This document shows positions 7,711-30,187 of a stretch of 64,000 bases of DNA, piece by piece. The stretch lies in contig NZ_JAHKQN010000005.1 of assembly GCF_018861125.1 (NCBI RefSeq), forward strand, positions 351,939 to 415,938, in the 5' to 3' direction. The position numbers were made by a program, and so were the translations under genes. The notes under the pieces are model-generated. The model was given only the letters and a program-made list of their open reading frames with translations, ran no database searches and was not told the DNA's origin. How positions within the stretch are numbered: the stretch's first letter is position 1; each line of letters starts with the position of its first letter. Source of the DNA: Cellulophaga baltica. GTDB lineage: Bacteria; Bacteroidota; Bacteroidia; Flavobacteriales; Flavobacteriaceae.

Positions 7711-8307
7711 CTAAAGTTTCTTCTTATTTAGGTTTGTAGCAGGTGTTTTTCTTTTAGTTACTTTATTGGAATTTTGTTTTACAAAAGCATCCCAACCTGT
7801 ATAACTTTTACCAACAGCTTCTATTCTTCCTGCATTATAAAAATGACATACTGCAGCAGCAAGACCATCAGTACTATCTAAATTTTTAGGCAAAGTTTTT
7901 AAACCTAACATACTTTGCAACATTTTAGCAACCTGCTCTTTACTTGCGTTACCGTTACCTGTTATGGCCATTTTAATTTTTTTTGGCAAATACTCAGTAA
8001 TCGGAATTTCACGAGACAAACCTGCCGCCATTGCAACCCCTTGTGCTCTACCCAATTTTAGCATAGATTGTACATTTTTGCCAAAAAAGGGAGCTTCAAT
8101 AGCAATTTCGTCTGGATGATACGTATCAATAAGCTCAATTGTACGTTCAAAAATAAGCTTCAATTTCACATAATGGTCGTCATATTTTTGCAATAACAAC
8201 TCATTCATTTGTAAAAACTCCATTTTTTTATTGACCACTTTTATAAGTCCGAACCCCATAATAGTAGTTCCAGGATCAATCCCTAATATAATTTTTTCGT
8301 TTGCCAA
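7711..8307 (-). CDS. ruvC: Crossover junction endodeoxyribonuclease RuvC
   Basis: RuvC cuts Holliday junctions after RuvAB branch migration. All four catalytic acids are present: D11 in LGIDPGT, E71 in IAIEAPFF, and D144 and D147 in NLDSTDGLAAAV. The 198-residue length exceeds E. coli RuvC (173) because of a basic C-terminal tail. The only start that keeps the conserved first strand is TTG at 8307, 5 nt after the stop of the upstream lipoprotein gene, so translation is probably coupled. ruvA and ruvB are not nearby. Confidence 0.92.
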   Translation of the reverse strand: MANEKIILGIDPGTTIMGFGLIKVVNKKMEFLQMNELLLQKYDDHYVKLKLIFERTIELIDTYHPDEIAIEAPFFGKNVQSMLKLGRAQGVAMAAGLSREIPITEYLPKKIKMAITGNGNASKEQVAKMLQSMLGLKTLPKNLDSTDGLAAAVCHFYNAGRIEAVGKSYTGWDAFVKQNSNKVTKRKTPATNLNKKKL

Positions 8308-16907: not shown

Positions 16908-17810
16908 CTATAATTTATTTGCCGAAAAAACGGGAATATCTTTCTTAGGCATAAGTCCAATTCCCATTTCAGGAAGTACCAATAAAGGTAATTGTGTATG
17001 AAAAGCCATTTTTTTAACTATAGGCTCTCGAGTCATGCGCTCCATATAACTATGCTGATAATTTAGCATTGCTAATAAATGAACTTGTAATTCAGCCGTA
17101 AAAACCTCTAACGTGTTTGAAACCGAATTCATCTCTGAAATGGTGTGAATGTAATATTCCGTAGTATTTAAATATCTTCTTAGCATATTTAAATTAAATT
17201 GTTGGACTTCTGTTAACGCCTTTATTTTATTTTGAACATAAACAATACGGATAACAGCTTCAAAAGTTTCTGCTAGCTCTAGTAAAGGTTGTAATTCTGA
17301 TAGGGTATAAAAACGATTAAAATCTGTTGCAAAAGCAATTTCTTTAGGAGTTTCATATTCAAAATGTTCAGGTATCGCCAATACCGGACATTTTTTTACA
17401 GCTTTTATAATACGAACAGCATTACTACCCATAAAAACTTCTGATACTCCTGATGCTCCTTTTGTGCCTAAAATAACCATTTGAATGTTATAATCATCAA
17501 CCAACTCTTTCACCTCATCAACTAAAAAACTAAAAGACGAAATGGTTTTGAAATTATGAATATGTGCAGGATCAGGGTATTCTTTTTCTATCCTTCTTAA
17601 AAGATTTATCAAGCCTTTTTTAGAAGAATTTTCTACCGTATTTTTTTCTTCATATACTGCTGTTGCCATAAACCTACTCGCCGAAATATTTGGCGTGTAT
17701 GTATTTAATAAATAGATATTACATTGCTCATTTTTAAACAACTCAATCGCATATTTTACAGCGTTCCAGGCATTTTCAGAAAAGTCAGTGGGGATTAATA
17801 TATTTTTCAT
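16908..17810 (-). CDS. Tandem universal stress protein (UspA domains)
   Basis: Two UspA-like domains make up 300 residues. The first begins MKNILIPTDFSENAWNAVKYA and contains the ATP-loop motif VILGTKGASGVSEVFMGSNAVRII; the second (from about residue 155, EIAFATDFNRF) is degenerate and lacks a clear GxxG9G motif. Tandem Usps of this type are common in Bacteroidota and often linked to low oxygen. An FNR-like site and a -7 box lie directly upstream (17832-17875), so oxygen-controlled expression is likely. Confidence 0.85.
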   Translation of the reverse strand: MKNILIPTDFSENAWNAVKYAIELFKNEQCNIYLLNTYTPNISASRFMATAVYEEKNTVENSSKKGLINLLRRIEKEYPDPAHIHNFKTISSFSFLVDEVKELVDDYNIQMVILGTKGASGVSEVFMGSNAVRIIKAVKKCPVLAIPEHFEYETPKEIAFATDFNRFYTLSELQPLLELAETFEAVIRIVYVQNKIKALTEVQQFNLNMLRRYLNTTEYYIHTISEMNSVSNTLEVFTAELQVHLLAMLNYQHSYMERMTREPIVKKMAFHTQLPLLVLPEMGIGLMPKKDIPVFSANKL

Positions 17811-17831
17811 GCTTCTAGTTTTTACTTGATG

Positions 17832-17875
17832 TAAAACTATACCAACTGAAAAATGAAAACTATGACAATTATCAG
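17832..17875 (-). promoter_or_regulatory. FNR-like site and -7 box of the uspA promoter
   Basis: The dyad ATGACAATTATCAG occupies 17862-17875 (centre 17868.5). On the minus strand the -7-like box TAGTTTTA starts at 17839, 29.5 bp from that centre. No -33 element is seen, as expected for an activator-dependent promoter. Transcription would start near 17825, about 15 nt before the ATG. Confidence 0.7.
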
Positions 17876-17907
17876 GTTTACAAGTTTTTATTGCAGGGTG
17901 TTGTTTT

Positions 17908-18606
17908 TCAACTTTCTACAAGGTCTAAAAGTGATTTTTCGTCCGCAATTCCTATTTTTTTGCCTGAAGTTTTTAAATAGCCTTTCTTCTTAAATTCTGA
18001 TATAATTCTAATGCATGACTCTGTTGCGGTTCCAACTACATTAGAAATATCTTCTCTAGATAATGTCAAAGCTAAAAAGCCATCACTATCTTCTCCAAAA
18101 TTATTTTTCATGTATAAAAAAGCTTCAGCAACACGTTGCTTTACCGTTTTCTGTGACATGTTTACAATTACATCATCAGCCTCTTTTAAATCATGTGCCA
18201 TATGACGAAGTACTTCAACAGCAAAATTTGGGTTCGTATTTAATGTATTTACAATACCGTCTTTCGGTATGTAACATACTTCCATATCATTAACCGCTAC
18301 AGCACTTAAATTCGAAGTCTCTTCAGCAATCACAGATCGTTGTCCTAAAACCTGACCTTTAGTTGCCAATTTTACGATTTGATCTTTACCATTCGGACTC
18401 AACTTTGAAAGTTTTGATATACCATTTCTAACACAAAAAACACCATTTAACTTTTCACCTTCTTCGAATATAGGATCTCCCTTTTTAATTGTTTTTGTAG
18501 TCTTGGTTTCTGAAATTTTACGTAATTCATCTTTACTCATCGCCCTTAATGAGTTAAATTGACGAATAATACACTGCTCACACCTTGATTTTTTATCGCT
18601 TTCCAT
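17908..18606 (-). CDS. FNR-like Crp/Fnr family transcriptional regulator
   Basis: The 232-residue protein has a cyclic-nucleotide-type sensor fold (about residues 35-150) and a C-terminal Crp-type helix-turn-helix (LTLSREDISNVVGTATESCIRIISEF). The N-terminal CEQC (C9, C12) and the Cys in MEVCYIP match E. coli FNR C20, C23 and C122. The Cys equivalent to FNR C29 is absent (Asn), while an extra Cys occurs in GVFCVRNG, so a [4Fe-4S] oxygen sensor is likely but with a different ligand set. The ATG at 18606 is preferred because the predicted start site (about 18625) excludes the TTG at 18633. It is probably autoregulated through the shared site at 18661-18674. Confidence 0.85.
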   Translation of the reverse strand: MESDKKSRCEQCIIRQFNSLRAMSKDELRKISETKTTKTIKKGDPIFEEGEKLNGVFCVRNGISKLSKLSPNGKDQIVKLATKGQVLGQRSVIAEETSNLSAVAVNDMEVCYIPKDGIVNTLNTNPNFAVEVLRHMAHDLKEADDVIVNMSQKTVKQRVAEAFLYMKNNFGEDSDGFLALTLSREDISNVVGTATESCIRIISEFKKKGYLKTSGKKIGIADEKSLLDLVES

Positions 18607-18630
18607 TCCCTTATTTTTTACCTGACACAA

Positions 18631-18704
18631 CAAAGTTACAAGTTATTAAAAATTCTAAACATGACAATTATCATGTTTTACTATACATCTGATTTTCAAT
18701 TTTG
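18631..18704. promoter_or_regulatory. Divergent FNR-like control region between fnr and ccoI
   Basis: ATGACAATTATCAT at 18661-18674, extended to an 8-6-8 perfect dyad over 18657-18678, is centred at 18667.5. On the plus strand CAATTTTG starts at 18697, and on the minus strand TAACTTTG starts at 18638. Both -7 boxes are exactly 29.5 bp from the centre, so one site could serve both promoters in class II position. Confidence 0.8.
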
Positions 18705-18728
18705 TACTCAGGAATAAAGTTACAAATT

Positions 18729-21122
18729 ATGGCTTCAAAAAAATGTTATCATTGCAACGATGATTGTAAAGTTTTAATCCATTTTGATGAAAAGGATTTC
18801 TGTTGCAATGGTTGCAAAACAGTTTATGAAATTTTCTCTTCAAACGACTTGTCTTATTATTATGATTTGCAGTCTGGTGCAGGTTCAACACCAAATATTA
18901 TTGAAGGAAAATTTGACTTTCTTGAAGCCACAGAAATAGTAGAAAAACTAACTGAATTTAATGACAAAAACTTACAGATTGTAAATCTCTATATTCCAAA
19001 AATTCACTGTAGTTCATGTATTTGGGTATTAGAAAATTTAAACAAACTAGCTCCTTCAATCACAAACTCACAAGTTAACTTTCCTAATAAAACAGTAAGA
19101 ATAAGTTACAACCCAACTAAAACTACATTAAAAAATGTTGTAGTGCTTTTAGCTCATATTGGTTATGAACCTTATATTTCATTAGATGATGTTGATAATA
19201 AAAAGAAAAGTACCGATCGTAGTTTAATTTATAAACTTGGTGTTGCTGGCTTTGCATTTGGCAATGTTATGTTTTTATCATTCCCTGAGTATTTTGATTT
19301 ATCATCAAGTAAAAGTTCTGGTGGTGAATTTTGGCTTAACCAATATCAAACAATTTTTAGGTGGCTAATGTTTATTTTTTCATTGCCTGTAGTATTCTAC
19401 GCTGGTCGTGATTATTTTATAGCGGCATATCAAGGGTTGCGTTCGAAATTACTAAATATTGATGTGCCAATTGCACTAGGTATTTTGGTATTATTTATTA
19501 GAAGTACTTTAGAAATTATTTTTGATTGGGGGCCTGGTTTTTTTGACAGCCTAACTGGGCTTGTGTTTTTTCTATTACTAGGTAAATTTTTTCAACAAAA
19601 AACATATTCATTTTTATCGTTTGAACGTGATTATAAATCATATTTCCCCATTGCAGTAACAAAAATTTTAAGCGACAATACTGAAAAAACAATTCAAGTA
19701 CATGACATAAAAAAAGGAGATCGTTTATTAATAAGAAATGAAGAATTAATACCTGTTGATGCTATTCTAATTTCAGGCAATGCGACTATAGACTATAGTT
19801 TTGTTACGGGTGAATCTGAACCTGTTATTAAAAATTCAGGAGATAAGGTTTTTGCTGGTGGAAAACAATTAAACGGGGTTATTGAGATTGATGTATTAAA
19901 ATCTGTCTCACAAAGTTACCTAACTCAATTATGGAGTAATGCCGTTTTTCAAGAAGATAAATCAAGTAAATTTCAAACTCTTACGGATAGTATTGGAAAA
20001 CGTTTTACAACGTTTGTACTAAGTATTGCTTTTATAGCAACCTTATTTTGGTTGTTTTACGACCCAAGTAAAGCATTAAATGTTTTCACTGCCGTTTTAA
20101 TAATTGCTTGCCCATGTGCAATTGCATTAGCTTCACCATTTACACTGGGTAATATGCTTCGGATTTATGGTAGAAAAAAATTCTATTTAAAAGATACTCA
20201 AACTATTGAGCAATTAGCACAAATAGATACTGCAATTTTTGATAAAACTGGAACTATAACTACTGCTAAAAAAAGTACTGCAGTTTATGAAGGTATCACT
20301 CTTACTGATGAAGAAGAATTGTTATTAAAAAGTACGTTAAGAGCATCAAACCATCCATTAAGTAGAAGTTTATATAATATGCTTGCTGAAAATGATATTG
20401 CAACACTTGATGATTATGAAGAACATTTAGGCAAAGGTATTGTTGGCTCAATTAATAATCAGAAAATAAAAATTGGTTCTGCAAATTATGTGGGGAACAC
20501 AGTAGCTGAAACGGATAAAAACACATCAGTTTACATAAGCACGAATGATGCATACAAAGGCTGTTATGTTTTTAAAAATGAATATCGCGAAGGTATTTCT
20601 GATTTTTTTAAGGCCATGAGTGAGACCATTCAAGTGGCTATTTTATCGGGTGATAATGAAGGCGAAAAAAGTAGACTTGAAGCTTTATTACCAAAACTTA
20701 CTCCATTATATTTTAATCAAAAACCAGAAGATAAATTAAGTTTTATAAAATCACTACAAGACCAAAATAAAAAAGTACTTATGGTAGGTGATGGTTTAAA
20801 TGATGCCGGAGCATTAGCACAAAGTAATGTTGGTATAGCCATATCTGAAAATGTAACCATCTTTTCTCCTGCTTGCGATGCTATTTTAGATGCTACTAAG
20901 TTTAAAGAATTATACAACTACATTATAGCTTCTAAAAAGGCTATGAAGATTATAAAATGGAGTTTTATGTTATCATTACTCTATAACGTTGTTGGGCTTT
21001 ATTTTGCCATCACGGGCCAATTAGAACCTGTTATAGCCGCTATTCTAATGCCTTTAAGCTCAATAAGTATTGTGGTATTTACGACAGTAAGCACCAATAT
21101 TTTAGGAAAAAAATTAAGATAA
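18729..21122 (+). CDS. ccoI: CcoI-type copper P1B ATPase
   Basis: CcoI (FixI) moves copper across the inner membrane for assembly of the cbb3 oxidase. An N-terminal Cys-rich domain (CYHCNDDC and CCNGC) is typical of CcoI. It is followed by an HMA domain with CSSC near residue 94, eight expected membrane helices with the transport motif CPC near 461, the phosphorylation motif DKTGT near 504 and GDGLNDA near 687. The ATG at 18729 is chosen: the in-frame TTG at 18702 lies within the -7 box and upstream of the predicted start site. The product is 797 residues. It is the first gene of the cco cluster. Confidence 0.92.
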   Translation: MASKKCYHCNDDCKVLIHFDEKDFCCNGCKTVYEIFSSNDLSYYYDLQSGAGSTPNIIEGKFDFLEATEIVEKLTEFNDKNLQIVNLYIPKIHCSSCIWVLENLNKLAPSITNSQVNFPNKTVRISYNPTKTTLKNVVVLLAHIGYEPYISLDDVDNKKKSTDRSLIYKLGVAGFAFGNVMFLSFPEYFDLSSSKSSGGEFWLNQYQTIFRWLMFIFSLPVVFYAGRDYFIAAYQGLRSKLLNIDVPIALGILVLFIRSTLEIIFDWGPGFFDSLTGLVFFLLLGKFFQQKTYSFLSFERDYKSYFPIAVTKILSDNTEKTIQVHDIKKGDRLLIRNEELIPVDAILISGNATIDYSFVTGESEPVIKNSGDKVFAGGKQLNGVIEIDVLKSVSQSYLTQLWSNAVFQEDKSSKFQTLTDSIGKRFTTFVLSIAFIATLFWLFYDPSKALNVFTAVLIIACPCAIALASPFTLGNMLRIYGRKKFYLKDTQTIEQLAQIDTAIFDKTGTITTAKKSTAVYEGITLTDEEELLLKSTLRASNHPLSRSLYNMLAENDIATLDDYEEHLGKGIVGSINNQKIKIGSANYVGNTVAETDKNTSVYISTNDAYKGCYVFKNEYREGISDFFKAMSETIQVAILSGDNEGEKSRLEALLPKLTPLYFNQKPEDKLSFIKSLQDQNKKVLMVGDGLNDAGALAQSNVGIAISENVTIFSPACDAILDATKFKELYNYIIASKKAMKIIKWSFMLSLLYNVVGLYFAITGQLEPVIAAILMPLSSISIVVFTTVSTNILGKKLR

Positions 21123-21132
21123 TTTTTTAAAC

Positions 21133-21176
21133 ATGATAAATGTCATTTTATCAGCATTAACATCAATGTAGTTTTA
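21133..21176 (+). promoter_or_regulatory. FNR-like site and -7 box upstream of ccoS
   Basis: ATGATAAATGTCAT lies at 21133-21146 (centre 21139.5), and the -7-like TAGTTTTA begins at 21169, again 29.5 bp away. It gives the oxidase structural genes a promoter separate from ccoI, with transcription from about 21182. Confidence 0.75.
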
Positions 21177-21195
21177 CAGTATAATTCAGGTAGGT

Positions 21196-21384
21196 ATGAG
21201 TGTTATTTATATGTTATTAGCAATAAGTATTGTTGTGGCGATTATCTTTTTTGTTGCATTTATTTACTCCGTAAAAAATGGACAATACGATGATTCTTAC
21301 ACACCTTCTGTACGCATGCTTTTTGAAGATGAACTTGTTGAAAAATCTCCAAAAAACAAAGAACAAACCTATCCAACTAAATAA
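21196..21384 (+). CDS. ccoS: cbb3 oxidase assembly protein CcoS
   Basis: This 62-residue protein has one N-terminal membrane helix (MSVIYMLLAISIVVAIIFFVAFI) followed by NGQYDDSYTPSVRMLFED, which is the CcoS signature. CcoS is needed for cofactor insertion (heme b and copper) into CcoN. It lies 19 nt upstream of ccoNO and is probably translated from the same message. Its length and order match other Bacteroidota cco clusters. Confidence 0.92.
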   Translation: MSVIYMLLAISIVVAIIFFVAFIYSVKNGQYDDSYTPSVRMLFEDELVEKSPKNKEQTYPTK

Positions 21385-21403
21385 AAAGTTTAAATAATCT
21401 ATT

Positions 21404-23605
21404 ATGGAATTACAGCAGTTTTATTACGACAACAAAGTCGTTAAAAAATTCCTCTACGCAACTATGTTCTGGGGAATAGTAGGTATGTCAGTAGGGCTTC
21501 TACTTGCATTTATGTTTATGTTCCCAAACTTAACTGATGGTATTTCATGGTTAAGCTTTGGACGTTTGAGACCTTTACATACAAATGCAGTAATTTTTGC
21601 TTTTGTAGGTAATGCTATTTTTGCCGGTGTATACTACTCTACCCAACGTTTACTTAAAGCACGTATGTTCAACGACTTTTTAAGTAATTTTAATTTTTGG
21701 GGATGGCAATTAATTATAGTTGCTGCTGCAATTACACTTCCATTAGGGTATAGTACATCAAAAGAATATGCTGAACTTGAATGGCCAATAGATATTGCTA
21801 TTGCTGTAGTTTGGGTTGCATTTGGCATTAACCTTATTGGTACCATGATAAAAAGAAGACAACGTCATTTATATGTTGCTCTTTGGTTTTACCTAGCCAC
21901 ATTTGTAACTATTGCTGTTCTTCATATCTTCAATAGTTTAGAATTACCTGTTAGTGGTTTAAAAAGTTACTCCGTTTACGCTGGTGTTCAAGATGCTTTA
22001 GTGCAGTGGTGGTATGGCCATAATGCTGTTGCCTTTTTCTTAACTACTCCATTTTTAGGCTTAATGTATTATTTTGTTCCTAAAGCAGCAAACAGACCTG
22101 TTTACTCATATAAATTATCTATTGTTCACTTCTGGTCATTAATATTTATTTATATATGGGCAGGTCCACACCACTTATTGTATTCTGCTTTACCAGACTG
22201 GGCACAAAATTTAGGTGTTGCTTTCTCAATTATGCTTTTAGCTCCATCTTGGGGTGGTATGATTAATGGTTTACTAACCTTACGTGGTGCCTGGGATAAA
22301 GTAAGAACAGATCCTACCTTAAAATTTATGGTTGTTGCAATTACTGGTTATGGTATGGCAACTTTTGAAGGTCCAATGTTATCTTTAAAAAATGTAAACG
22401 CCATTGCTCACTTTAGCGATTGGATTATTGCTCACGTACATGTAGGTGCCTTAGCATGGAACGGTTTTATGACTTTTGGTATGATTTATTGGTTGGTTCC
22501 AAAAATGTTCAAAACTCGTTTGGCTTCGTTAAAACTTGCTAATTTTCACTTCTGGATTGGTACTTTAGGTATCATCTTATACACACTACCAATGTATGTT
22601 GCTGGGTTCACGCAAGCATTAATGTGGAAAGATTTTAACCCTAACGGAACATTAGTTTATGGTAACTTTTTAGAAACCGTAACTGAAATAATGCCAATGT
22701 ATTGGATGCGTGCTATTGGTGGTACAATGTATATTATTGGCGCATGTGTTATGATTTATAATGTAGTATTAACTATTAAAGCTGGTAGCGATGTTGAAGA
22801 TGAATTAGCTGAAGCTGCCGCATTAACTAAAGTATCTAAAAGTAGAACTGCTGGTGAAACTTTCCATACTTGGTTAGAGCGTAAGCCTGTACAGCTAACC
22901 ATATTAGCAACAGTTGCCATTTTAATTGGTGGAGCAATACAAATTATACCAACCATCTTAGTGAAATCAAACATACCAACCATAACTAGTGTAAAACCTT
23001 ACACTCCACTAGAGCTTGAAGGTCGTGATTTATATATTAGAGAAGGTTGTGTGGGTTGTCACTCACAAATGGTAAGACCTTTTAGAAGTGAGGTTGAACG
23101 TTACGGCGAATATGCTAAAGCTGGAGAGTTTGTTTATGATCATCCTTTTTTATGGGGAAGTAAACGTACCGGACCAGATCTATTAAGAGTTGGTGGTAAA
23201 TATTCTGACAACTGGCACTTAAACCACATGTACGATCCACAAAGCACCTCATCTGGTTCTATTATGCCATCATATGCTTGGTTAATTAGAAATGAACACG
23301 ATAGATCTGATATTCAAGATAAAATGAAAGCTATGGTTAGTCTAGGTGTACCATATACAGATGAAGATATAGCTAATGCAAATGCTACTATGGATAAACA
23401 AGCAACTAAAATTGAAAAGAGCTTGTATGCTGATCCTGATTTTGCAAAAAACTATGAAGCTGATAAAAAGTATGCTGCTGAAAATGGTGAAGCATTTATT
23501 GAAATGAAAGATCGTGAAATTGTCTCTTTAATTGCTTACTTACAGCGTTTAGGAACAGATATTAAAATAAAAGAAACAGGAGAGTTAGTACCTGAAACAA
23601 AATAA
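21404..23605 (+). CDS. ccoNO: Fused cbb3 cytochrome c oxidase subunit I/II (CcoN-CcoO)
   Basis: This 733-residue protein joins the heme-copper subunit CcoN (about 1-480, twelve membrane helices) to the cytochrome c subunit CcoO. The CcoN part contains the histidine segments WWYGHNAVAFF, GPHHLLYSALPDW and HFSDWIIAHVHVGALAWNG that bind heme and CuB. The CcoO part has EGCVGCHSQMVRPF near residues 548-558 for a covalent heme c, with distal Met in SIMPSYAWL. Fusion of the two is usual in Bacteroidota. The enzyme reduces oxygen at very low concentration and pumps protons. Confidence 0.95.
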   Translation: MELQQFYYDNKVVKKFLYATMFWGIVGMSVGLLLAFMFMFPNLTDGISWLSFGRLRPLHTNAVIFAFVGNAIFAGVYYSTQRLLKARMFNDFLSNFNFWGWQLIIVAAAITLPLGYSTSKEYAELEWPIDIAIAVVWVAFGINLIGTMIKRRQRHLYVALWFYLATFVTIAVLHIFNSLELPVSGLKSYSVYAGVQDALVQWWYGHNAVAFFLTTPFLGLMYYFVPKAANRPVYSYKLSIVHFWSLIFIYIWAGPHHLLYSALPDWAQNLGVAFSIMLLAPSWGGMINGLLTLRGAWDKVRTDPTLKFMVVAITGYGMATFEGPMLSLKNVNAIAHFSDWIIAHVHVGALAWNGFMTFGMIYWLVPKMFKTRLASLKLANFHFWIGTLGIILYTLPMYVAGFTQALMWKDFNPNGTLVYGNFLETVTEIMPMYWMRAIGGTMYIIGACVMIYNVVLTIKAGSDVEDELAEAAALTKVSKSRTAGETFHTWLERKPVQLTILATVAILIGGAIQIIPTILVKSNIPTITSVKPYTPLELEGRDLYIREGCVGCHSQMVRPFRSEVERYGEYAKAGEFVYDHPFLWGSKRTGPDLLRVGGKYSDNWHLNHMYDPQSTSSGSIMPSYAWLIRNEHDRSDIQDKMKAMVSLGVPYTDEDIANANATMDKQATKIEKSLYADPDFAKNYEADKKYAAENGEAFIEMKDREIVSLIAYLQRLGTDIKIKETGELVPETK

Positions 23606-23610
23606 AAACT

Positions 23611-23656
23611 GATTATTCAGAGGTAACTAATACCTTTTATCTACCTCTGAATAATC
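23611..23656 (+). other. Perfect 15-bp intercistronic hairpin between ccoNO and ccoQ
   Basis: GATTATTCAGAGGTA at 23611-23625 is the exact complement of 23642-23656, with a 16-nt loop. It starts 5 nt after the ccoNO stop. No T-run follows, so it is not a standard terminator. It may protect the upstream message end or partly attenuate ccoQP. Confidence 0.75.
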
Positions 23657-23675
23657 TCTTAAAACAAAAGAAATC

Positions 23676-23867
23676 ATGTTTAAATTCGTAAAAGGTTACA
23701 TGGAAACTATAGATGGTGTAGCAACCTACCCTATCATATCATTATTAATCTTCTTTATCTTTTTTATAGTTCTTTTTGGATGGGTTTTTACTGCATCAAA
23801 AGAATATATAAAAGAGGTTAGTGAATTACCTATTGAAAAAGACAACCAACAAAACTTCGAATTATGA
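23676..23867 (+). CDS. ccoQ: CcoQ-like small cbb3 oxidase subunit
   Basis: Sixty-three residues with one membrane helix (about 20-41, IISLLIFFIFFIVLFGWVFT) and a short acidic tail. This matches CcoQ/FixQ in size, topology and place between ccoNO and ccoP. CcoQ stabilises the complex and is not catalytic. Its stop overlaps the ccoP start (ATGA), so the two are translationally coupled. Confidence 0.8.
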   Translation: MFKFVKGYMETIDGVATYPIISLLIFFIFFIVLFGWVFTASKEYIKEVSELPIEKDNQQNFEL

Positions 23868-24811
23868 AAAATAAATCAAATTGGTGGATTAGAGTTCCAG
23901 TAATCTTCTTTATTATCTTCGGATTAATGGAATATTTTATAGACTCTGGTGATCAACCCGCAATAATAAAGTATCCAATAACTCAACTTTTTTTATTACT
24001 AGTTCTTGTAATATTAGGGGCAATAGAGCTAATACTTAGTGCCATTGAAAATGTAATGTTTCAAACACTATCTGAAGAAGCTCAAAAACGTTACCTAGCC
24101 AAAAAAGAACAAAAATGGGAATGGAAATGGGGTAAAGAAACTTATATAAAACTTTTAGGTTCTAAACCAATGGAAGCTGAAAGTGAAATAGTTTTAGATC
24201 ATAATTATGATGGTATTAGAGAGCTAGATAACAAATTACCGCCTTGGTGGGTATATATGTTCTATGCAAGTATCGTTTTTGGTTTTGTCTACCTACTACG
24301 TTTTCACGTTTTCAACGGTGACAACCAAGATATAGAATATGAACAAGAAGTAGCTTTAGCTTTGAAAGAAATTGAAGAATACAAAAAGACTGCTAAAGAT
24401 TTAGTTGATGAAGATACTGTAGAACTATTAACTGATGCTTCTGACTTAAGTGCTGGTGAAAAAACATTTCAATCAAACTGTGTTGCTTGTCATATGGCTG
24501 ATGGTGGTGGTGGTATAGGCCCTAACCTAACCGATCAACATTGGATTTTAGGCGGTGGTATTAAAAATGTTTTCCATACTATTTCAGAAGGTGGTAGAGA
24601 TGGTAAAGGGATGATTGCTTGGAAACAAACTTTGAAACCTGCAGAAATTGCTCAAGTAGCTAGTTATGTATTAACTACTCTTAACGGTTCTACACCTGCA
24701 AACCCAAAACCTGCTGAAGGTGATATTTGGGTAGATCCAAATGCTGAAAAAGTAGCTCCTGCTGAGGAATTAAATGTTGTTACTGATTCTGTAAGTGTAG
24801 CTCTGAATTAA
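23864..24811 (+). CDS. ccoP: cbb3 oxidase diheme-type subunit CcoP, here with one heme c motif
   Basis: Three hydrophobic segments are seen: two near the N-terminus (about 9-22 and 34-56) and one at about 128-145. A periplasmic cytochrome c domain of about 100 residues follows, with CVACH near residue 206 and the axial Met in GKGMIAW. Proteobacterial CcoP has two CxxCH motifs, but only one is present here, as in other Bacteroidota. The N-terminal cytoplasmic segment between helices 2 and 3 is enlarged and charged. CcoP accepts electrons from soluble cytochrome c or from the alternative complex and passes them to CcoO. Confidence 0.9.
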   Translation: MKNKSNWWIRVPVIFFIIFGLMEYFIDSGDQPAIIKYPITQLFLLLVLVILGAIELILSAIENVMFQTLSEEAQKRYLAKKEQKWEWKWGKETYIKLLGSKPMEAESEIVLDHNYDGIRELDNKLPPWWVYMFYASIVFGFVYLLRFHVFNGDNQDIEYEQEVALALKEIEEYKKTAKDLVDEDTVELLTDASDLSAGEKTFQSNCVACHMADGGGGIGPNLTDQHWILGGGIKNVFHTISEGGRDGKGMIAWKQTLKPAEIAQVASYVLTTLNGSTPANPKPAEGDIWVDPNAEKVAPAEELNVVTDSVSVALN

Positions 24812-24839
24812 TAAAATAAAGCATTAAACATCAAAAAAA

Positions 24840-26258
24840 ATGGCTCAAGACAGCGAACATTTTAGAGATTCTATTGGTACTATTAACGAAGATGGTAAAA
24901 GAGCTTGGGTATATCCAAAAAAACCAAGTGGAAAATTATACGAATATCGTAAGTATGTTAGCTACGCCTTGTTGTTATTTTTAGTAGCTTCTCCATTTAT
25001 AAAAATAAATGGAAACCAATTTTTGATGTTTAATGTTTTAGAGCGTAGGTTCAATATTTTTGGATTTCCGTTTTGGCCACAAGACTTTCATTTGTTTGTT
25101 ATTTCAATGATTATTGGAGTTGTCTTTATAGCTTTATTTACTGTTGCTTTTGGTCGTATTTTCTGTGGATGGATGTGTCCGCAAACCATATTTTTAGAAA
25201 TGGTTTTCCGTAGAATTGAATACTGGATTGATGGTGACAGAGGTGCTCAAATAAAGTTAGATAGACAAGAATGGAATGCTGAAAAAATAAGAAAGAGAAC
25301 TTTAAAATGGTTTCTATTTTTTATTATATCATTTTTAATTGCAAATGTTTTTCTTGCTTATTTAATAGGTAGTGATCGCTTGATTAGATATGTAATTGAT
25401 GGCCCTTTACAGCATGTCGGAACTTTAGTGTCATTATTAATATTTACCAGTGTTTTCTATTTCATATTTGCCTGGTTTAGAGAGCAAGTGTGTATCATTG
25501 CTTGTCCTTATGGTCGTATGCAAGGCGTTTTATTAGACAACAAATCAATTGTGGTTGCTTATGATCACAAAAGAGGTGAAGGTGAAAATGGTCGTAAAAA
25601 ATTTCGTAAAAGTGAAGATAGAAATGCATTAGGTAATGGTGATTGTATTGACTGTAACCAATGCGTAAATGTATGCCCTACGGGTATTGATATTAGAAAT
25701 GGTACTCAACTAGAGTGTGTAAACTGTACTGCCTGTATTGACGAGTGCAATACTATAATGGATAAAGTAAACTTACCTAAAGGATTAATTAGGTATGCGA
25801 GTGAAGATGAAATCGTAAAAAAGGAAAAATTTAAATTCACTCCTCGTTTAAAAGGGTATACTGCAGTACTTTTTATTTTAACTGGTATTCTTGTAGGTAT
25901 GTTGTTTTTAAGAAATGATCTTGAAGCCACTATTTTAAGATTACCTGGCCAATTATATGAACACAAACCAAACAATGTAATAAGTAATGTTTTCACTTAT
26001 AAACTAATTAATAAAACAACTAAAAATGTTGATGATGTACATTTTAAATTACTATCACATAAAGGAAATATTATATTAGTCAGACACGAAGATTTTGATG
26101 TTCCTGCTCAAGATTTATCTGAAGGTACGTTATTTATTGAAATTAACAATAGTGCATTAAAAGACGATAAAGAAAAACTTGAAATCGGGGTTTATAGTGG
26201 CGACAAATTAATAGAAACTACTACAACTTCATTTTTAGCTCCAAGAAGCTATAAATAA
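24840..26258 (+). CDS. ccoG: cbb3 oxidase accessory ferredoxin-like protein CcoG
   Basis: CcoG (RdxA/FixG) is a membrane-bound copper reductase that helps load CuB. The 472-residue protein shows the expected helices, the CGWMCPQ motif near residue 111, a second IACPYGRMQG near 220, and two [4Fe-4S] motifs, CIDCNQCVNVCP and CVNCTACIDEC, near 265-300. The C-terminal Ig-like domain (about 365-472) is also present. It follows ccoP by 28 nt and precedes fixH by 20 nt. Confidence 0.92.
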   Translation: MAQDSEHFRDSIGTINEDGKRAWVYPKKPSGKLYEYRKYVSYALLLFLVASPFIKINGNQFLMFNVLERRFNIFGFPFWPQDFHLFVISMIIGVVFIALFTVAFGRIFCGWMCPQTIFLEMVFRRIEYWIDGDRGAQIKLDRQEWNAEKIRKRTLKWFLFFIISFLIANVFLAYLIGSDRLIRYVIDGPLQHVGTLVSLLIFTSVFYFIFAWFREQVCIIACPYGRMQGVLLDNKSIVVAYDHKRGEGENGRKKFRKSEDRNALGNGDCIDCNQCVNVCPTGIDIRNGTQLECVNCTACIDECNTIMDKVNLPKGLIRYASEDEIVKKEKFKFTPRLKGYTAVLFILTGILVGMLFLRNDLEATILRLPGQLYEHKPNNVISNVFTYKLINKTTKNVDDVHFKLLSHKGNIILVRHEDFDVPAQDLSEGTLFIEINNSALKDDKEKLEIGVYSGDKLIETTTTSFLAPRSYK

Positions 26259-26278
26259 TATTTTAAAAGAAAGAAATC

Positions 26279-26725
26279 ATGAAGATTAATTGGGGAACCG
26301 GAATTGTAATTGCTATTATTGGTTTTATAAGTTTTATTCTATTTTTTATAATTAGAATGAGTATGGATGATCGTGCCAATCACGATTTAGTAACTCCAGA
26401 ATACTATAAAGCTGAATTAGCTTACCAACAAGAGATTGATGCTGAGAATAATTCAATACATAATAATGCTGTTGTTACAATGCAAAAAACTGCTGATGGC
26501 TTACAATTAAAATTTCCAGATAATATTGACTATAAGAGTATAACAGGAACAGTGTCTCTATACAGACCTTCTAATAAACACTTGGATTTTTACTTTCCCA
26601 TAAGTATTTCTGACTCCAATTTGCTCATACCTGACAAACGTTTATTGGAAGGTCGATGGGACATTAAAGTTACCTGGAAATACAATGATGAAGACTATTT
26701 ATTTAAAGAAAATATTACATATTAA
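26279..26725 (+). CDS. ccoH: FixH/CcoH family cbb3 assembly protein
   Basis: The 148-residue protein has an N-terminal membrane helix (about 5-27) and a periplasmic beta-domain beginning NHDLVTPEYYKAELAYQQEIDAENN, a block typical of FixH. The C-terminal WDIKVTWKYNDEDYLFKENI is also typical. CcoH binds CcoN during assembly. It lies between ccoG and the SafE-like gene, with a 3-nt gap to the latter. Confidence 0.9.
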   Translation: MKINWGTGIVIAIIGFISFILFFIIRMSMDDRANHDLVTPEYYKAELAYQQEIDAENNSIHNNAVVTMQKTADGLQLKFPDNIDYKSITGTVSLYRPSNKHLDFYFPISISDSNLLIPDKRLLEGRWDIKVTWKYNDEDYLFKENITY

Positions 26726-26728
26726 ACT

Positions 26729-27436
26729 ATGCTACTAGCTGCAATCATATTAGGTTTTATGGGGAGTTTACACTGCGTAGGTATGTGCGGACCAATTGCC
26801 TTTATGCTTCCAGTTGATAGATCTAGTAATTTTAAAAAAATAAGTCAGATTTTTATTTATCATTTCGGAAGGTTGCTTGCTTATAGTATTTTAGGCTTAA
26901 TTTTTGGCTTGCTTGGTAAAGGGCTATTTGTTTTTGGTATGCAACAAAAACTATCGATTGCTATTGGAGTTTTAATGATAATAGTTGTCTTAATTCCACA
27001 CCAAAAACTTAATAAATTCAACCTATCAAAACCAATCTATAAGATTATAGGAAAAGTAAAAAATAAACTTGGTAAAGAACTTCAAAAGAAAACACCTGAT
27101 ACTTTTTTAACTATAGGTTTCTTAAATGGGTTCTTACCTTGCGGATTAGTATATATGGCACTTTTTGGTGCAATTGCAATGGGTTCACCTTTACAAGGGG
27201 CCCTTTACATGACACTTTTTGGCGTAGGAACTATTCCATTAATGACAACAGCAATCTACTTTAGTAGTTTACTTAAAAACGGTTTGAAACAAAAAATACA
27301 AAAACTAATTCCTGTATTTGTAGTACTCATTGGCGCTTTATTTATTTTAAGAGGCCTAAGTTTAGGAATACCTTATGTATCACCAAAACCTATAACCGAA
27401 GTTGTTTCAGCAACGATGGAATGTCATGTAAATTAA
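26729..27436 (+). CDS. SafE/UreH-like membrane protein of the cco cluster
   Basis: Six or seven membrane helices in 235 residues with GSLHCVGMCGPIAFML at the N-terminus and NGFLPCGLVYMALFGAIAMGS in the middle mark the TauE/SafE-related family found in cco operons (sometimes called CcoI2 or heavy-metal transporter). The paired Cys residues in the first helix (HCVGMC) could handle copper. In cco clusters this family is thought to help copper homeostasis; direct proof is limited. It ends the continuous run from ccoS and is followed 31 nt later by the globin gene. Confidence 0.8.
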   Translation: MLLAAIILGFMGSLHCVGMCGPIAFMLPVDRSSNFKKISQIFIYHFGRLLAYSILGLIFGLLGKGLFVFGMQQKLSIAIGVLMIIVVLIPHQKLNKFNLSKPIYKIIGKVKNKLGKELQKKTPDTFLTIGFLNGFLPCGLVYMALFGAIAMGSPLQGALYMTLFGVGTIPLMTTAIYFSSLLKNGLKQKIQKLIPVFVVLIGALFILRGLSLGIPYVSPKPITEVVSATMECHVN

Positions 27437-27467
27437 GTACCTTCATACTCACAAACCACAAAAACTT

Positions 27468-27857
27468 ATGGCTCAAAAAGAACTAGAAAATAGAACTGAT
27501 GTAAGTAAATTGGTTCGAAGCTTTTATGCAAAGGTTCGAAAAGATACTGTTTTGGGTCCTATTTTTAATGGTATTATTACCGATTGGGAAAGTCATTTAG
27601 AGTTACTTACTAATTTTTGGGAAACACAATTATTCTTAAAAAGAAAATATCACGGCAACCCAATTAAAGCGCATAACGATGTTGATGATAAAATGAACCA
27701 TACTGTAAGTCCTGAACATTTCGGGCTTTGGTTAAATTTATGGTTTGAAACTATTGATGAGTTATATACTGGTGATACCGCTTTTATTGCTAAAAACAGA
27801 GCTCGACAAATGAATACGATGCTGTACATGAAAATTTTTCAACACAGAACTAAATAA
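27468..27857 (+). CDS. Group III truncated hemoglobin
   Basis: The 129 residues match group III truncated globins: the N-terminal helix VSKLVRSFYAKVRKDTVLGPIF, the WESHLELLTNFWETQLF block, and the downstream segment PIKAHNDVDDKMNHTVSPEHFGLWLNLW, which contains the heme-proximal histidine. Group III globins are linked to microaerobic growth and to nitric oxide or peroxide handling, though their reactions are poorly known. The position as last gene of the cco run supports a link with low-oxygen respiration. Confidence 0.9.
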   Translation: MAQKELENRTDVSKLVRSFYAKVRKDTVLGPIFNGIITDWESHLELLTNFWETQLFLKRKYHGNPIKAHNDVDDKMNHTVSPEHFGLWLNLWFETIDELYTGDTAFIAKNRARQMNTMLYMKIFQHRTK

Positions 27858-27890
27858 AAAAGGGAATATTTATAAAAAACATTCCCTTTT
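27858..27890. terminator. Bidirectional terminator between globin and uspA genes
   Basis: AAAAGGGAAT (27858-27867) pairs exactly with ATTCCCTTTT (27881-27890) across a 13-nt loop. It stands between converging genes, and each strand ends in a T-run, so it can stop transcription from both sides. Confidence 0.9.
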
Positions 27891-27913
27891 CAACAACAAT
27901 TCAACCAACTAAA

Positions 27914-28738
27914 CTAGATCTTAAATGTAACCACTGGTATTGTCGAATGATTAGCAATATCCTCACCTATACTACCCATAAAAAAATGAGATAACCCTTT
28001 TCTACCGTGTGTAGGTATTCCTATAATATCTATATTTTCCGCTTCTGCATAATTAATAACACCTTTTTCGACATTATAATCGTTATATACTTTTACATCT
28101 AGGAGCTCTGGCCCTACTGCCGTAGAAAATTTTTCAATTTTACCTTTAATAGCTTCAGTACTTAAAAAATTATCGGCAGGTGTATTTACATATAATAAAT
28201 GCAAATCAATTGAAAATTGTGCCGCAATATATTTTGCTCTTTGGTAAGCATGAATATTTTCTTCTTCTAAATCGCAAGCAAAAACCATTTTGCTTGGCGC
28301 AAAATTTTCCATGTCATGCTTTACAACTAATACTGGAGTGTCTGAATTTCTAACTACCTTTTCTGTATTAGAGCCCACGAAGACCTCCATCAATCCATCA
28401 ACACCATGTGAACCCATAATCACAAGGTCTGCATTATTCGCTTCTGCAACTTCATTAACTTCACTAAAAACTTTAAAATGTTTAATTACAGGTTTTACTG
28501 TGATACCATCTAAATATGGTTTTTTAATAAAGTCTTGAAAACGCTTTTCCGCTAGTTTCATTAAAAAAACGGTCTGTTCTGGTTGAAAACCTTCTGTTGA
28601 TGATATATATGCTTGGTTTAACTCTAACATATGCATTGCATAAATTACAGAATTATGTTTTTTTGCAAGAGAAGCTGCTACTTTTAATGCATTTTCTGAT
28701 TGAATCGAAAAATCTACAGGTACGATAATGTTTTTCAT
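27914..28738 (-). CDS. Universal stress protein, two UspA domains
   Basis: Both halves of this 274-residue protein retain UspA features. The first has MKNIIVPVDFS and VIMGSHGVDGLMEVFVGSNTEKVV; the second has IIGIPTHGRKGLSHFFMGSIGEDIANHS. The ATP-binding GxxG-x9-G(S/T) motif is intact in each, unlike the tandem Usp at 16908. The gene follows hemN by 26 nt on the same strand with no promoter visible between, so it probably shares the FNR-controlled hemN promoter. Confidence 0.88.
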   Translation of the reverse strand: MKNIIVPVDFSIQSENALKVAASLAKKHNSVIYAMHMLELNQAYISSTEGFQPEQTVFLMKLAEKRFQDFIKKPYLDGITVKPVIKHFKVFSEVNEVAEANNADLVIMGSHGVDGLMEVFVGSNTEKVVRNSDTPVLVVKHDMENFAPSKMVFACDLEEENIHAYQRAKYIAAQFSIDLHLLYVNTPADNFLSTEAIKGKIEKFSTAVGPELLDVKVYNDYNVEKGVINYAEAENIDIIGIPTHGRKGLSHFFMGSIGEDIANHSTIPVVTFKI

Positions 28739-28764
28739 GGTATTTATTTTTTTAAGTTGAATAT

Positions 28765-30126
28765 TTAAATTGTCATTGAAAAAAGCCTAGTTTCTGGAGC
28801 TTTTCTGTGTAAATGCATATCAAATGCCATACATATATTTCTAATAAATGGCATTCCCTTTTTTGTTACTTGAATTATATTGTTATTAATCTCAATTAAT
28901 TGATCAGCCTCCATTTCTTTCAGTTTTTTTAATACAAGATTAGCATTAAAAAAAGAAGCTTCGTTAACTTTTATTTCAGTCTTAAAATGACACATTAAAT
29001 CTAAAATATGCTGACGGATAATTTTATCTTCATCACTTAAAATGTGTCCTCTATAAATAGGAATTATGTTATTTTCTACCAAATGCTGATACTCTTCAAT
29101 ACTTTTTACATTCTGTGCAAAACTATACCAACTATCGCTTATACTTGAAGCCCCTAAACCAATCATTAGCTGAGTTTTTGAAGCAGTATACCCCATAAAA
29201 TTTCGATGTAATTTTTTATTATCTAATGCTTTATATAAACTATCTGTTTTTGAAGCAAAATGATCCATTCCTATTTCTTTATAACCAACCTCAGCGAGCA
29301 ATTTTTTTCCATTTTCATATTGCTCTCGTTTTTCATCGGCACTAGGTAAATCTGCCTCATTATAACCACGCTGACCGTTACCTTTTATCCAAGGCACATG
29401 AGCATAACTATAAAAAGCTAAACGATCTGGTTTTAAACTTTTTGTTTTTAAAATAGTAGCTTCAACATCTTCAAGGGTTTGATGTGGTAAACCAAAAATA
29501 ATATCATGACCAATTGAGGTATACCCAATCTCACGCGCTATATCGGTAACATTTTTTACATTCTCAAACGGTTGTATTCTGTGTATTGCTTTTTGTACTT
29601 TCTCATTATAGTCTTGTACACCGTAACTCACACGCCTAAACCCTACATCATATAAAGCTTGTAAGTGCTCTTTTGTCGTATTGTTTGGATGGCCTTCAAA
29701 ACTAAATTCATGATTATTAGCTTTTACTGCAGTTTTTAAAATTCCGTTTATTAAGTATTTTAAATTTTCTGGTGAGAAAAAAGTTGGTGTTCCACCACCA
29801 AGATGTAATTCTTTAACAACTGGTTTCTCATCAAATAGTTTGCAATATAGTTCCCACTCTTTCAATACCGTTTGTATATATGGTATTTGAACATCGTTTC
29901 TTTTAGTAATACGTTTGTGACAACCACAAAATGTACACATACTTTCACAAAAAGGTAAATGAATGTATAAACTTATACCCTCAGTAGCATTACTCGCTGA
30001 AAAGCTTTTTTGTAATGTTTCTTCCCATTTTTTTCCTGAGAAAGAATTCATATCCCAATACGGAACAGTTGGGTAACTTGTATATCGAGGACCTGGTATA
30101 TTATATTTTTGAACTAAACTGCACAT
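28765..30126 (-). CDS. hemN: Oxygen-independent coproporphyrinogen III oxidase HemN
   Basis: HemN converts coproporphyrinogen III to protoporphyrinogen IX without oxygen, using two S-adenosylmethionine molecules. The motif C60-x3-C64-x2-C67-x-C69 (CESMCTFCGC) is the true HemN pattern, and the following HKR and GGGTPTF blocks agree. At 453 residues it has full HemN length, unlike the HemW at 6541. Heme is required by the cbb3 oxidase and globin encoded next door. The promoter (30144-30187) carries an FNR-like site, so expression at low oxygen is likely. Confidence 0.93.
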   Translation of the reverse strand: MCSLVQKYNIPGPRYTSYPTVPYWDMNSFSGKKWEETLQKSFSASNATEGISLYIHLPFCESMCTFCGCHKRITKRNDVQIPYIQTVLKEWELYCKLFDEKPVVKELHLGGGTPTFFSPENLKYLINGILKTAVKANNHEFSFEGHPNNTTKEHLQALYDVGFRRVSYGVQDYNEKVQKAIHRIQPFENVKNVTDIAREIGYTSIGHDIIFGLPHQTLEDVEATILKTKSLKPDRLAFYSYAHVPWIKGNGQRGYNEADLPSADEKREQYENGKKLLAEVGYKEIGMDHFASKTDSLYKALDNKKLHRNFMGYTASKTQLMIGLGASSISDSWYSFAQNVKSIEEYQHLVENNIIPIYRGHILSDEDKIIRQHILDLMCHFKTEIKVNEASFFNANLVLKKLKEMEADQLIEINNNIIQVTKKGMPFIRNICMAFDMHLHRKAPETRLFSMTI

Positions 30127-30143
30127 TTGTAATTTATTTGCTA

Positions 30144-30187
30144 CAAACCTACTGGCAATAAGTCAAAATAAATATGACAAATGTCAG
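30144..30187 (-). promoter_or_regulatory. FNR-like site and -7 box of the hemN promoter
   Basis: ATGACAAATGTCAG lies at 30174-30187 (centre 30180.5). On the minus strand the perfect -7 box TAGGTTTG begins at 30151, exactly 29.5 bp away. Transcription would begin near 30137, about 11 nt before the hemN ATG. Confidence 0.8.

Follow-up and report, generated by a model that had tools for sequence, protein, structure and literature searches.

Which protein switches on the genes for respiration at low oxygen in flavobacteria, and by what promoter rule? The primary sigma factor of Bacteroidota recognises a −7 box that differs from the one in Escherichia coli, and, within the literature covered, little of the phylum's activator control has been mapped. 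The question is raised by a stretch of 64,000 nucleotides (nt) from Cellulophaga baltica (hereafter, the window), in which a dyad with a TGA-N6-TCA core precedes a universal stress protein gene (uspA), a gene for an Fnr-like regulator (fnr), ccoI, ccoS and hemN. In our view, the neighbouring Fnr-like protein likely acts from this dyad, centred 29.5 base pairs (bp) from the −7 box, to activate a regulon for low-oxygen respiration in class II fashion. Judged from its sequence and setting, the element is conserved and class II-like, is held to a spacing exact to one base pair and precedes an apparent low-oxygen gene set.

In all five window promoters, exactly 29.5 bp separate the dyad centre from the first base of the box; this distance, reported in an earlier note on the same DNA, was confirmed by measurement, and the dyad coordinates given there were recovered by pattern search. 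The dyad of uspA (gene at 16908-17810, minus strand, PF00582) lies at 17862-17875 on the minus strand (CTGATAATTGTCAT in gene direction), with the box at 17832-17839 (TAGTTTTA, minus strand, first base 17839), a predicted start at 17827 and a leader of 17 nt. The regulator gene (17908-18606, minus strand, 232 amino acids (aa)) and ccoI (18729-21122, plus strand; a heavy-metal P-type ATPase of cbb3 oxidase maturation, named from position and domains) use a common dyad at 18661-18674 divergently. The fnr box is at 18631-18638 (TAACTTTG, minus strand, first base 18638; predicted start 18626, leader 20 nt), and the ccoI box at 18697-18704 (CAATTTTG, plus strand, first base 18697; predicted start 18709, leader 20 nt). 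The operon of ccoS (FixS by family match, 62 aa, 21196-21384, plus strand) and ccoN (21404-23605, plus strand, 733 aa; read from the sequence as a ccoNO fusion with a C-terminal haem c part) has its dyad at 21133-21146 on the plus strand and its box at 21169-21176 (TAGTTTTA, plus strand, first base 21169; predicted start 21181, leader 15 nt). For hemN (28765-30126, minus strand; oxygen-independent coproporphyrinogen III oxidase, TIGR00538, above cut-off), the dyad is at 30174-30187 on the minus strand (CTGACATTTGTCAT in gene direction) and the box at 30144-30151 (TAGGTTTG, minus strand, first base 30151; predicted start 30139, leader 13 nt). The boxes are in general close to TAnnTTTG, as had been claimed, but that of ccoI begins with C and two end with A; four of the five read TAnnTTTR, in keeping with the −7 box of the Bacteroidota primary sigma factor (TAnnTTTG), the exception being ccoI (CAATTTTG). 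The dyads at 17862-17875 and 30174-30187 are asymmetric toward the gene, with C or A before TGA on the upstream side and T after TCA on the downstream side, beyond which a T-rich stretch follows at −33 to −30.

The composite pattern TGAYN4RTCA-N23-HAnnTTTR occurs five times in the window, whereas 200 first-order Markov sequences averaged 0.055 occurrences and never had more than 1; because this pattern was picked with the window sites already in hand, the weight rests on the comparative tests. The loose dyad ATGAN6TCAK alone gave 15 matches in the window (5.1 expected; 1 of 100 shuffles equally high), and TGAYANNTRTCA gave 5, one of them at 8117, outside the named promoters (0.39 expected; none of 100 shuffles equally high).

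Across the whole genome, the dyad alone is not enriched (22 sites vs. 29 reversed-pattern controls), and a longer form of it gave 9 matches against 9 for ATGAYANNTRTCAK; since its frequency equals chance, the dyad alone was rejected as a predictor of the regulon. The earlier note had proposed a genome scan for dyad and box: the dyad by itself fell to chance, whereas the composite is enriched (11 matches vs. 3 controls) and linked to respiratory genes. Five of the 11 matches are the named promoters, one lies inside a reading frame on the opposite strand, and five precede other genes, encoding a YceI-like protein, a conserved protein without a Pfam match, a transhydrogenase-like alpha subunit, a thioredoxin-like protein and a TonB-like protein (the YceI-like and transhydrogenase-like names are our own reading of the sequences). 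In the family scan described below, relatives (55-69% identity) stand behind the element for the protein without a Pfam match (3 loci), the thioredoxin-like protein (3 loci) and the TonB-like protein (1 locus).

The spacing is borne out across genera. A scan of 60 family genomes for CAAANNTA-N{13,33}-TGAYANNTRTCA found matches in 51, and the gap among the 150 matches listed was 23 in 109, 22 in 12 and 24 in 8, with at most 4 cases for each other length. Around fnr in 80 named loci, TAnnTTTG stands 29.5 bp from TGAYN4RTCA 64 times, and at the next most frequent distance 5 times. Among 149 family genomes, one per genus, the dyad and box at fixed spacing (strict box, T required after TCA) gave 911 matches, compared to 8 for the reversed pattern as control, and 127 of the 149 genomes have at least one such site; the fixed, class II-like geometry proposed for the window recurs across genera. 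Outside the family the composite is weak: the 2 genomes from the same order gave 14 matches, 20 from the same class gave 29 (control 1) and 111 from elsewhere in the phylum gave 15 (control 3).

Conservation was then counted separately for each gene, over the usable loci among the 80 named ones and the window. The element, with TAnnTT at 29.5 bp, precedes ccoS in 74 of 74 loci, usp1 (the orthologue of uspA) in 73 of 74 and fnr in 49 of 81, and is absent upstream of ccoP (0 of 72), ccoG (0 of 71), ccoH (0 of 67) and the next gene (0 of 66). Rows for ccoN and usp2, which have common upstream regions or cross-match with ccoS and usp1, were excluded as extra evidence, and hemN had a single usable locus. 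All 78 usable loci have the dyad upstream of ccoI, but TAnnTT stands at 29.5 bp in only one. The ccoI box is nearly always CAnnTTTG (first base C in 62 of 78, G in 10 and A in 5; A at position 2 in 77, TT at positions 5-6 in 78 and G at position 8 in 78), a conserved, systematic departure from TAnnTTTG. If more than one dyad was present in a region, preference went to that with a box-like sequence at 29.5 bp, so that these base counts lean towards a box.

As the named loci are mostly close relatives, the count was redone across genera in 60 genomes (own included), taking for each gene its 30 best matches, out of 48 for ccoN and 42 for hemN. The element precedes ccoN or ccoS in 29 of the 30 ccoN loci (the miss is L401) and hemN in 26 of the 30 hemN loci. 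One of the hemN misses, L381, has the dyad with TACTTTCG instead of a box; two (L386 and L388) belong to genomes that have the receiver-CRP fusion discussed below and lack Fnr; and the fourth (L398) belongs to a genome with neither. Thus, the element precedes ccoS/ccoN and hemN across genera, and uspA, ccoI and often fnr in closer relatives. A further candidate ccoN, L198 of genome G036, was rejected because it belongs to a divergent oxidase; the closer ccoN of that genome, at L425, carries the element. In one locus, hemN lies inside the cco cluster, between ccoI and ccoS (L368:11538-12896). Another (L356:8446) has a divergent cbb3-like oxidase gene with a TTGAC-type dyad and TAGGTTTG at 29.5 bp, about 630 bp upstream of the match.

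Among the matches listed in the family scan, 103 of the 109 sites with a gap of 23 have a downstream reading frame within 350 nt of the predicted start. These 103 genes form 46 groups, of which 31 consist of a single gene; the largest are ccoN (16 loci, including one divergent oxidase) and hemN (16 loci, with the own genome counted). The remaining groups, counted in the same matches, were named by a family check on one member each: 2-oxoacid:acceptor oxidoreductase (5 loci in 3 genomes, two of the loci being apparent copies); formate C-acetyltransferase (4 loci; the sequence checked is partial and below the full-length cut-off); methylmalonyl-CoA epimerase and a FadL-type outer membrane protein (4 loci each); phosphate acetyltransferase, thioredoxin and cytochrome c (3 loci each); and FeoB (2 loci). 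Three usp and two fnr loci were assigned by similarity to the window genes, and the single cases include NrfH, HemA, pyruvate phosphate dikinase, ResB-like and TonB-type proteins. This gene set appears to fit a low-oxygen regulon, which the earlier note had proposed and which comparison across genera bears out. The conserved protein without a Pfam match mentioned above has about 500 aa (L165:3-1448, minus strand) with 'HSFHIPVMGIGFTID' near its start; the element precedes its copy in our genome, and its relatives with the element upstream are found in three other genomes (L188, L274 and L277; 68-69% identity). In the window, a small globin-like gene (27468-27857, from reading the sequence; no Pfam match at 0.001) follows the cco operon.

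Where would a protein bound at this dyad stand in relation to RNA polymerase? In F. psychrophilum, the TAnnTTTG box lies at −12 to −5 and leaders have a median of 24 nt, according to the portion of PMC9723704 covered; the five leaders predicted here are of 13-20 nt, given assumed ATG starts. With the first base of the box at −12, the dyad centre would therefore fall at −41.5, the class II position. The absence of a clear −33 element holds loosely: among the matches listed, TTTG occurs close to that position in 6 and TTG in 13 of 103 family sites, yet the positions from −33 to −30 are T-rich (60-69% T per position). In these 103 sites, selected with a strict pattern that fixes the inner TGA-N6-TCA, the outer base before TGA is A in 64, C in 20, G in 11 and T in 8, and T follows TCA in 82. 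At class II promoters, the FNR of E. coli and A. fischeri binds TTGAT-N4-ATCAA at −41.5. That the flavobacterial consensus differs from this site is true of the outer base, the outer T being mostly absent, but not of the TGA-N6-TCA core, which is common to both and also to the sites of CRP.

The window regulator has a cNMP-binding fold and a Crp-type helix-turn-helix (cNMP_binding and HTH_Crp_2; PF00027, PF13545), and its recognition helix reads E-x-x-I-R, compared to E-x-x-S-R in E. coli and A. fischeri FNR. In the part covered of a study of motifs in the FNR family, residues 180 and 181 (CRP numbering) are tied to bases G3 and A6 (PMC1274295). By our alignment, the window protein keeps Glu181 and Arg185 and has Thr at 180, which would fit a TGA without a preceding G. 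Ser212 of E. coli FNR is, we presume, replaced by Ile in the window protein, a change that may account for the missing outer T. The E-x-x-I-R helix would thus match TGA preceded by A or C, not T.

Against the NCBIfam Fnr model, the protein scores 103.6 bits, below the cut-off of 228. The ligands of E. coli FNR are the N-terminal Cys20, Cys23 and Cys29 and the central Cys122. In the window protein, cysteines stand at 10, 13, 59 and 112 (numbering that includes one residue ahead of Met): the N-terminal C-x2-C and the central cysteine, in a 'VC.IP' segment, align with those of FNR, whereas the third N-terminal cysteine is missing (another cysteine within 12 residues is present in 1 of 110 loci) and an extra, invariant Cys59 lies in a predicted beta strand instead. 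Failing these sequence features of FNR proper, the protein is filed within the Crp/Fnr superfamily and not as FNR. Both the low score and the missing cysteine speak for an Fnr-fold sensor of something else (nitric oxide, haem or thiol redox) whose cysteines hold no iron-sulphur cluster, and the targets elsewhere include at least one nitrogen-oxide gene, nrfH. The pattern of conservation, however, makes such a sensor improbable. The full set of four cysteines is present in 80 of 80 named loci, and 15 of 20 distant homologues retain it as well; three of the remaining five have no Cys59 but carry extra N-terminal cysteine, and two have lost the whole set. Of the proteins that have CxxC and Cys112 but not Cys59, 19 of 19 possess a third N-terminal cysteine. 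The two thus appear to replace each other, which suggests that the window protein uses an iron-sulphur ligand set other than that of E. coli FNR.

As an oxygen sensor, the Fnr-like protein would keep a [4Fe-4S] cluster on Cys10, Cys13, Cys59 and Cys112 when oxygen falls, and in that state would dimerise and bind the dyad. At −41.5, the bound dimer would touch the RNA polymerase holoenzyme at the place where it would otherwise recognise a −33 element. From the site common to fnr and ccoI, the regulator would be autoactivating in the window's genome. By analogy, the C. baltica arrangement may work like FNR control in E. coli, with which it has in common the Crp/Fnr fold, the dyad core, the presumptive −41.5 position and the low-oxygen genes, while differing in outer base, recognition helix, cysteine set and the Bacteroidota −7 box.

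Is the neighbouring protein the reader? We regard this as likely in the Cellulophaga genome, with another Crp/Fnr protein, acting alone or together with it, as an unlikely alternative. Here, that protein would be a second Fnr-like paralogue (L319, G000:C33:582062-583282, on contig C33), which has the same motif in its helix (EEQVIR) and a canonical FNR-like cysteine count (C-x2-C-x4-C, without Cys59). In other genera, it would be a fusion of receiver, cNMP-like and Crp helix-turn-helix domains of about 350 residues, again with an E-x-x-I-R helix, found in many genomes without Fnr. Copies of it are at L350:1798-2850 (minus strand) and in L351, L352, L353, L354 and L355; in 5 of these 6 loci, it lies near usp genes bearing the element. 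Even without Fnr, a genome can carry the element upstream of cco, hemN and usp genes, as at L352, L357, L358 and L359. Since genomes with the fusion and without the window-type Fnr keep sites, a second reader is probable, and the fusion probably reads the same promoter code in relatives. It is found at full length (E 1e-77 or better) in 65 of the 149 family genomes; in the window's genome, a homology search found no full-length copy (best 1.4e-24).

A two-factor test in the 149 genomes (Fnr at E 1e-50 or better, fusion at the threshold above) supersedes a comparison of Fnr presence and site number in 60. Mean sites per genome were 0.86 with neither (n = 29), 4.58 with Fnr only (n = 55), 7.70 with the fusion only (n = 30) and 11.51 with both (n = 35). 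Allowing for genome size and ignoring kinship, Fnr contributes +3.02 sites (standard error 0.87) and the fusion +6.24 (0.94), with an interaction of 0.45 (1.17); the two effects on site number add. In the analysis that gave these effects, Fnr-only genomes averaged 4.83 sites and genomes with neither 0.82. This excess speaks for the Fnr-like protein, as do the dyad that its gene shares with ccoI and its place in the cco cluster in relatives. An attempt to tell Fnr sites from receiver-CRP sites by their inner bases was abandoned, the difference being too small (A5 and T8 in 28 of 63 sites from Fnr-only genomes vs. 13 of 39 from receiver-CRP-only genomes, among the matches listed). The least tenable alternative, which we find scarcely credible, is that the dyad serves a repressor, or is an AT-rich palindrome lying by chance near ordinary promoters: the dyad alone does occur at chance frequency genome-wide, but the fixed spacing (911 vs. 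8 controls, to one base pair) and a presumptive position typical of activation argue against it.

Several observations weigh against activation by the neighbouring Fnr-like protein as proposed here. All 30 receiver-CRP-only genomes hold at least one site, and so the presence of a site does not in itself name its reader; the E-x-x-I-R motif also recurs in a paralogue within the window's genome. Nine of the 29 genomes that have neither protein nonetheless contain 1-8 sites, which may reflect a third reader or missed genes. With the fnr promoter box in 49 of 81 loci, autoactivation is not universal. Some matches are due to chance, given the one of 11 in our genome that lies inside a reverse frame and the 31 ungrouped genes among 103. 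Finally, the structure model has a mean predicted local distance difference test score (pLDDT) of 75.7, with residues 1-20 below 60 on average, so that the cysteines are not placeable and the model was used for fold comparison only.

Published systems offer partial parallels. The sigma-A promoters of F. psychrophilum have the TAnnTTTG box, and under oxygen limitation the cbb3 oxidase rises strongly and haem synthesis enzymes rise, a set similar to the respiratory and haem genes here; the portion of that paper covered names no activator site, and the words 'fnr', 'crp' and 'palindrom' are absent from its text (PMC9723704). The HcpR, DNR and NnrR regulons, as far as the covered part of PMC1274295 describes them, belong to the same superfamily, were obtained by the same comparative method and include HcpR2 of Bacteroides and Porphyromonas, with a predicted regulon of hcp only in most Bacteroides; their motifs differ (wTGTGA-N6-TCACAw, TTGAC-N4-GTCAA, GTAAC-N4-GTTAC or FNR-box-like). 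MalR-type proteins of Bacteroides, of the same superfamily and phylum, are tied in the covered part of PMC8510549 to carbon-source use, not low oxygen. No flavobacterial Fnr site or regulon appeared in titles or abstract openings among the literature matches listed, which cover few subscription journals and are no proof of novelty.

The one-base-pair rule points to candidate low-oxygen promoters in 127 of the 149 genera sampled; to this are added a candidate reader that has an unusual cysteine set and evidence for two different sensors reading one code. The evidence is about evenly poised on a broader proposal, namely that Bacteroidota evolved their own oxygen sensor on the FNR fold, in which CxxC, the beta-strand Cys59 and the central cysteine would hold the [4Fe-4S] cluster, and which would have a rigid promoter code (TGA-N6-TCA, N23, TAnnTTTG) in common with the receiver-CRP fusion. 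The ligand set makes a testable claim, that of an iron-sulphur ligand moving between parts of the same fold. If the proposal is true, oxygen and phosphorelay signals would address the same class of promoters and could replace each other in evolution.

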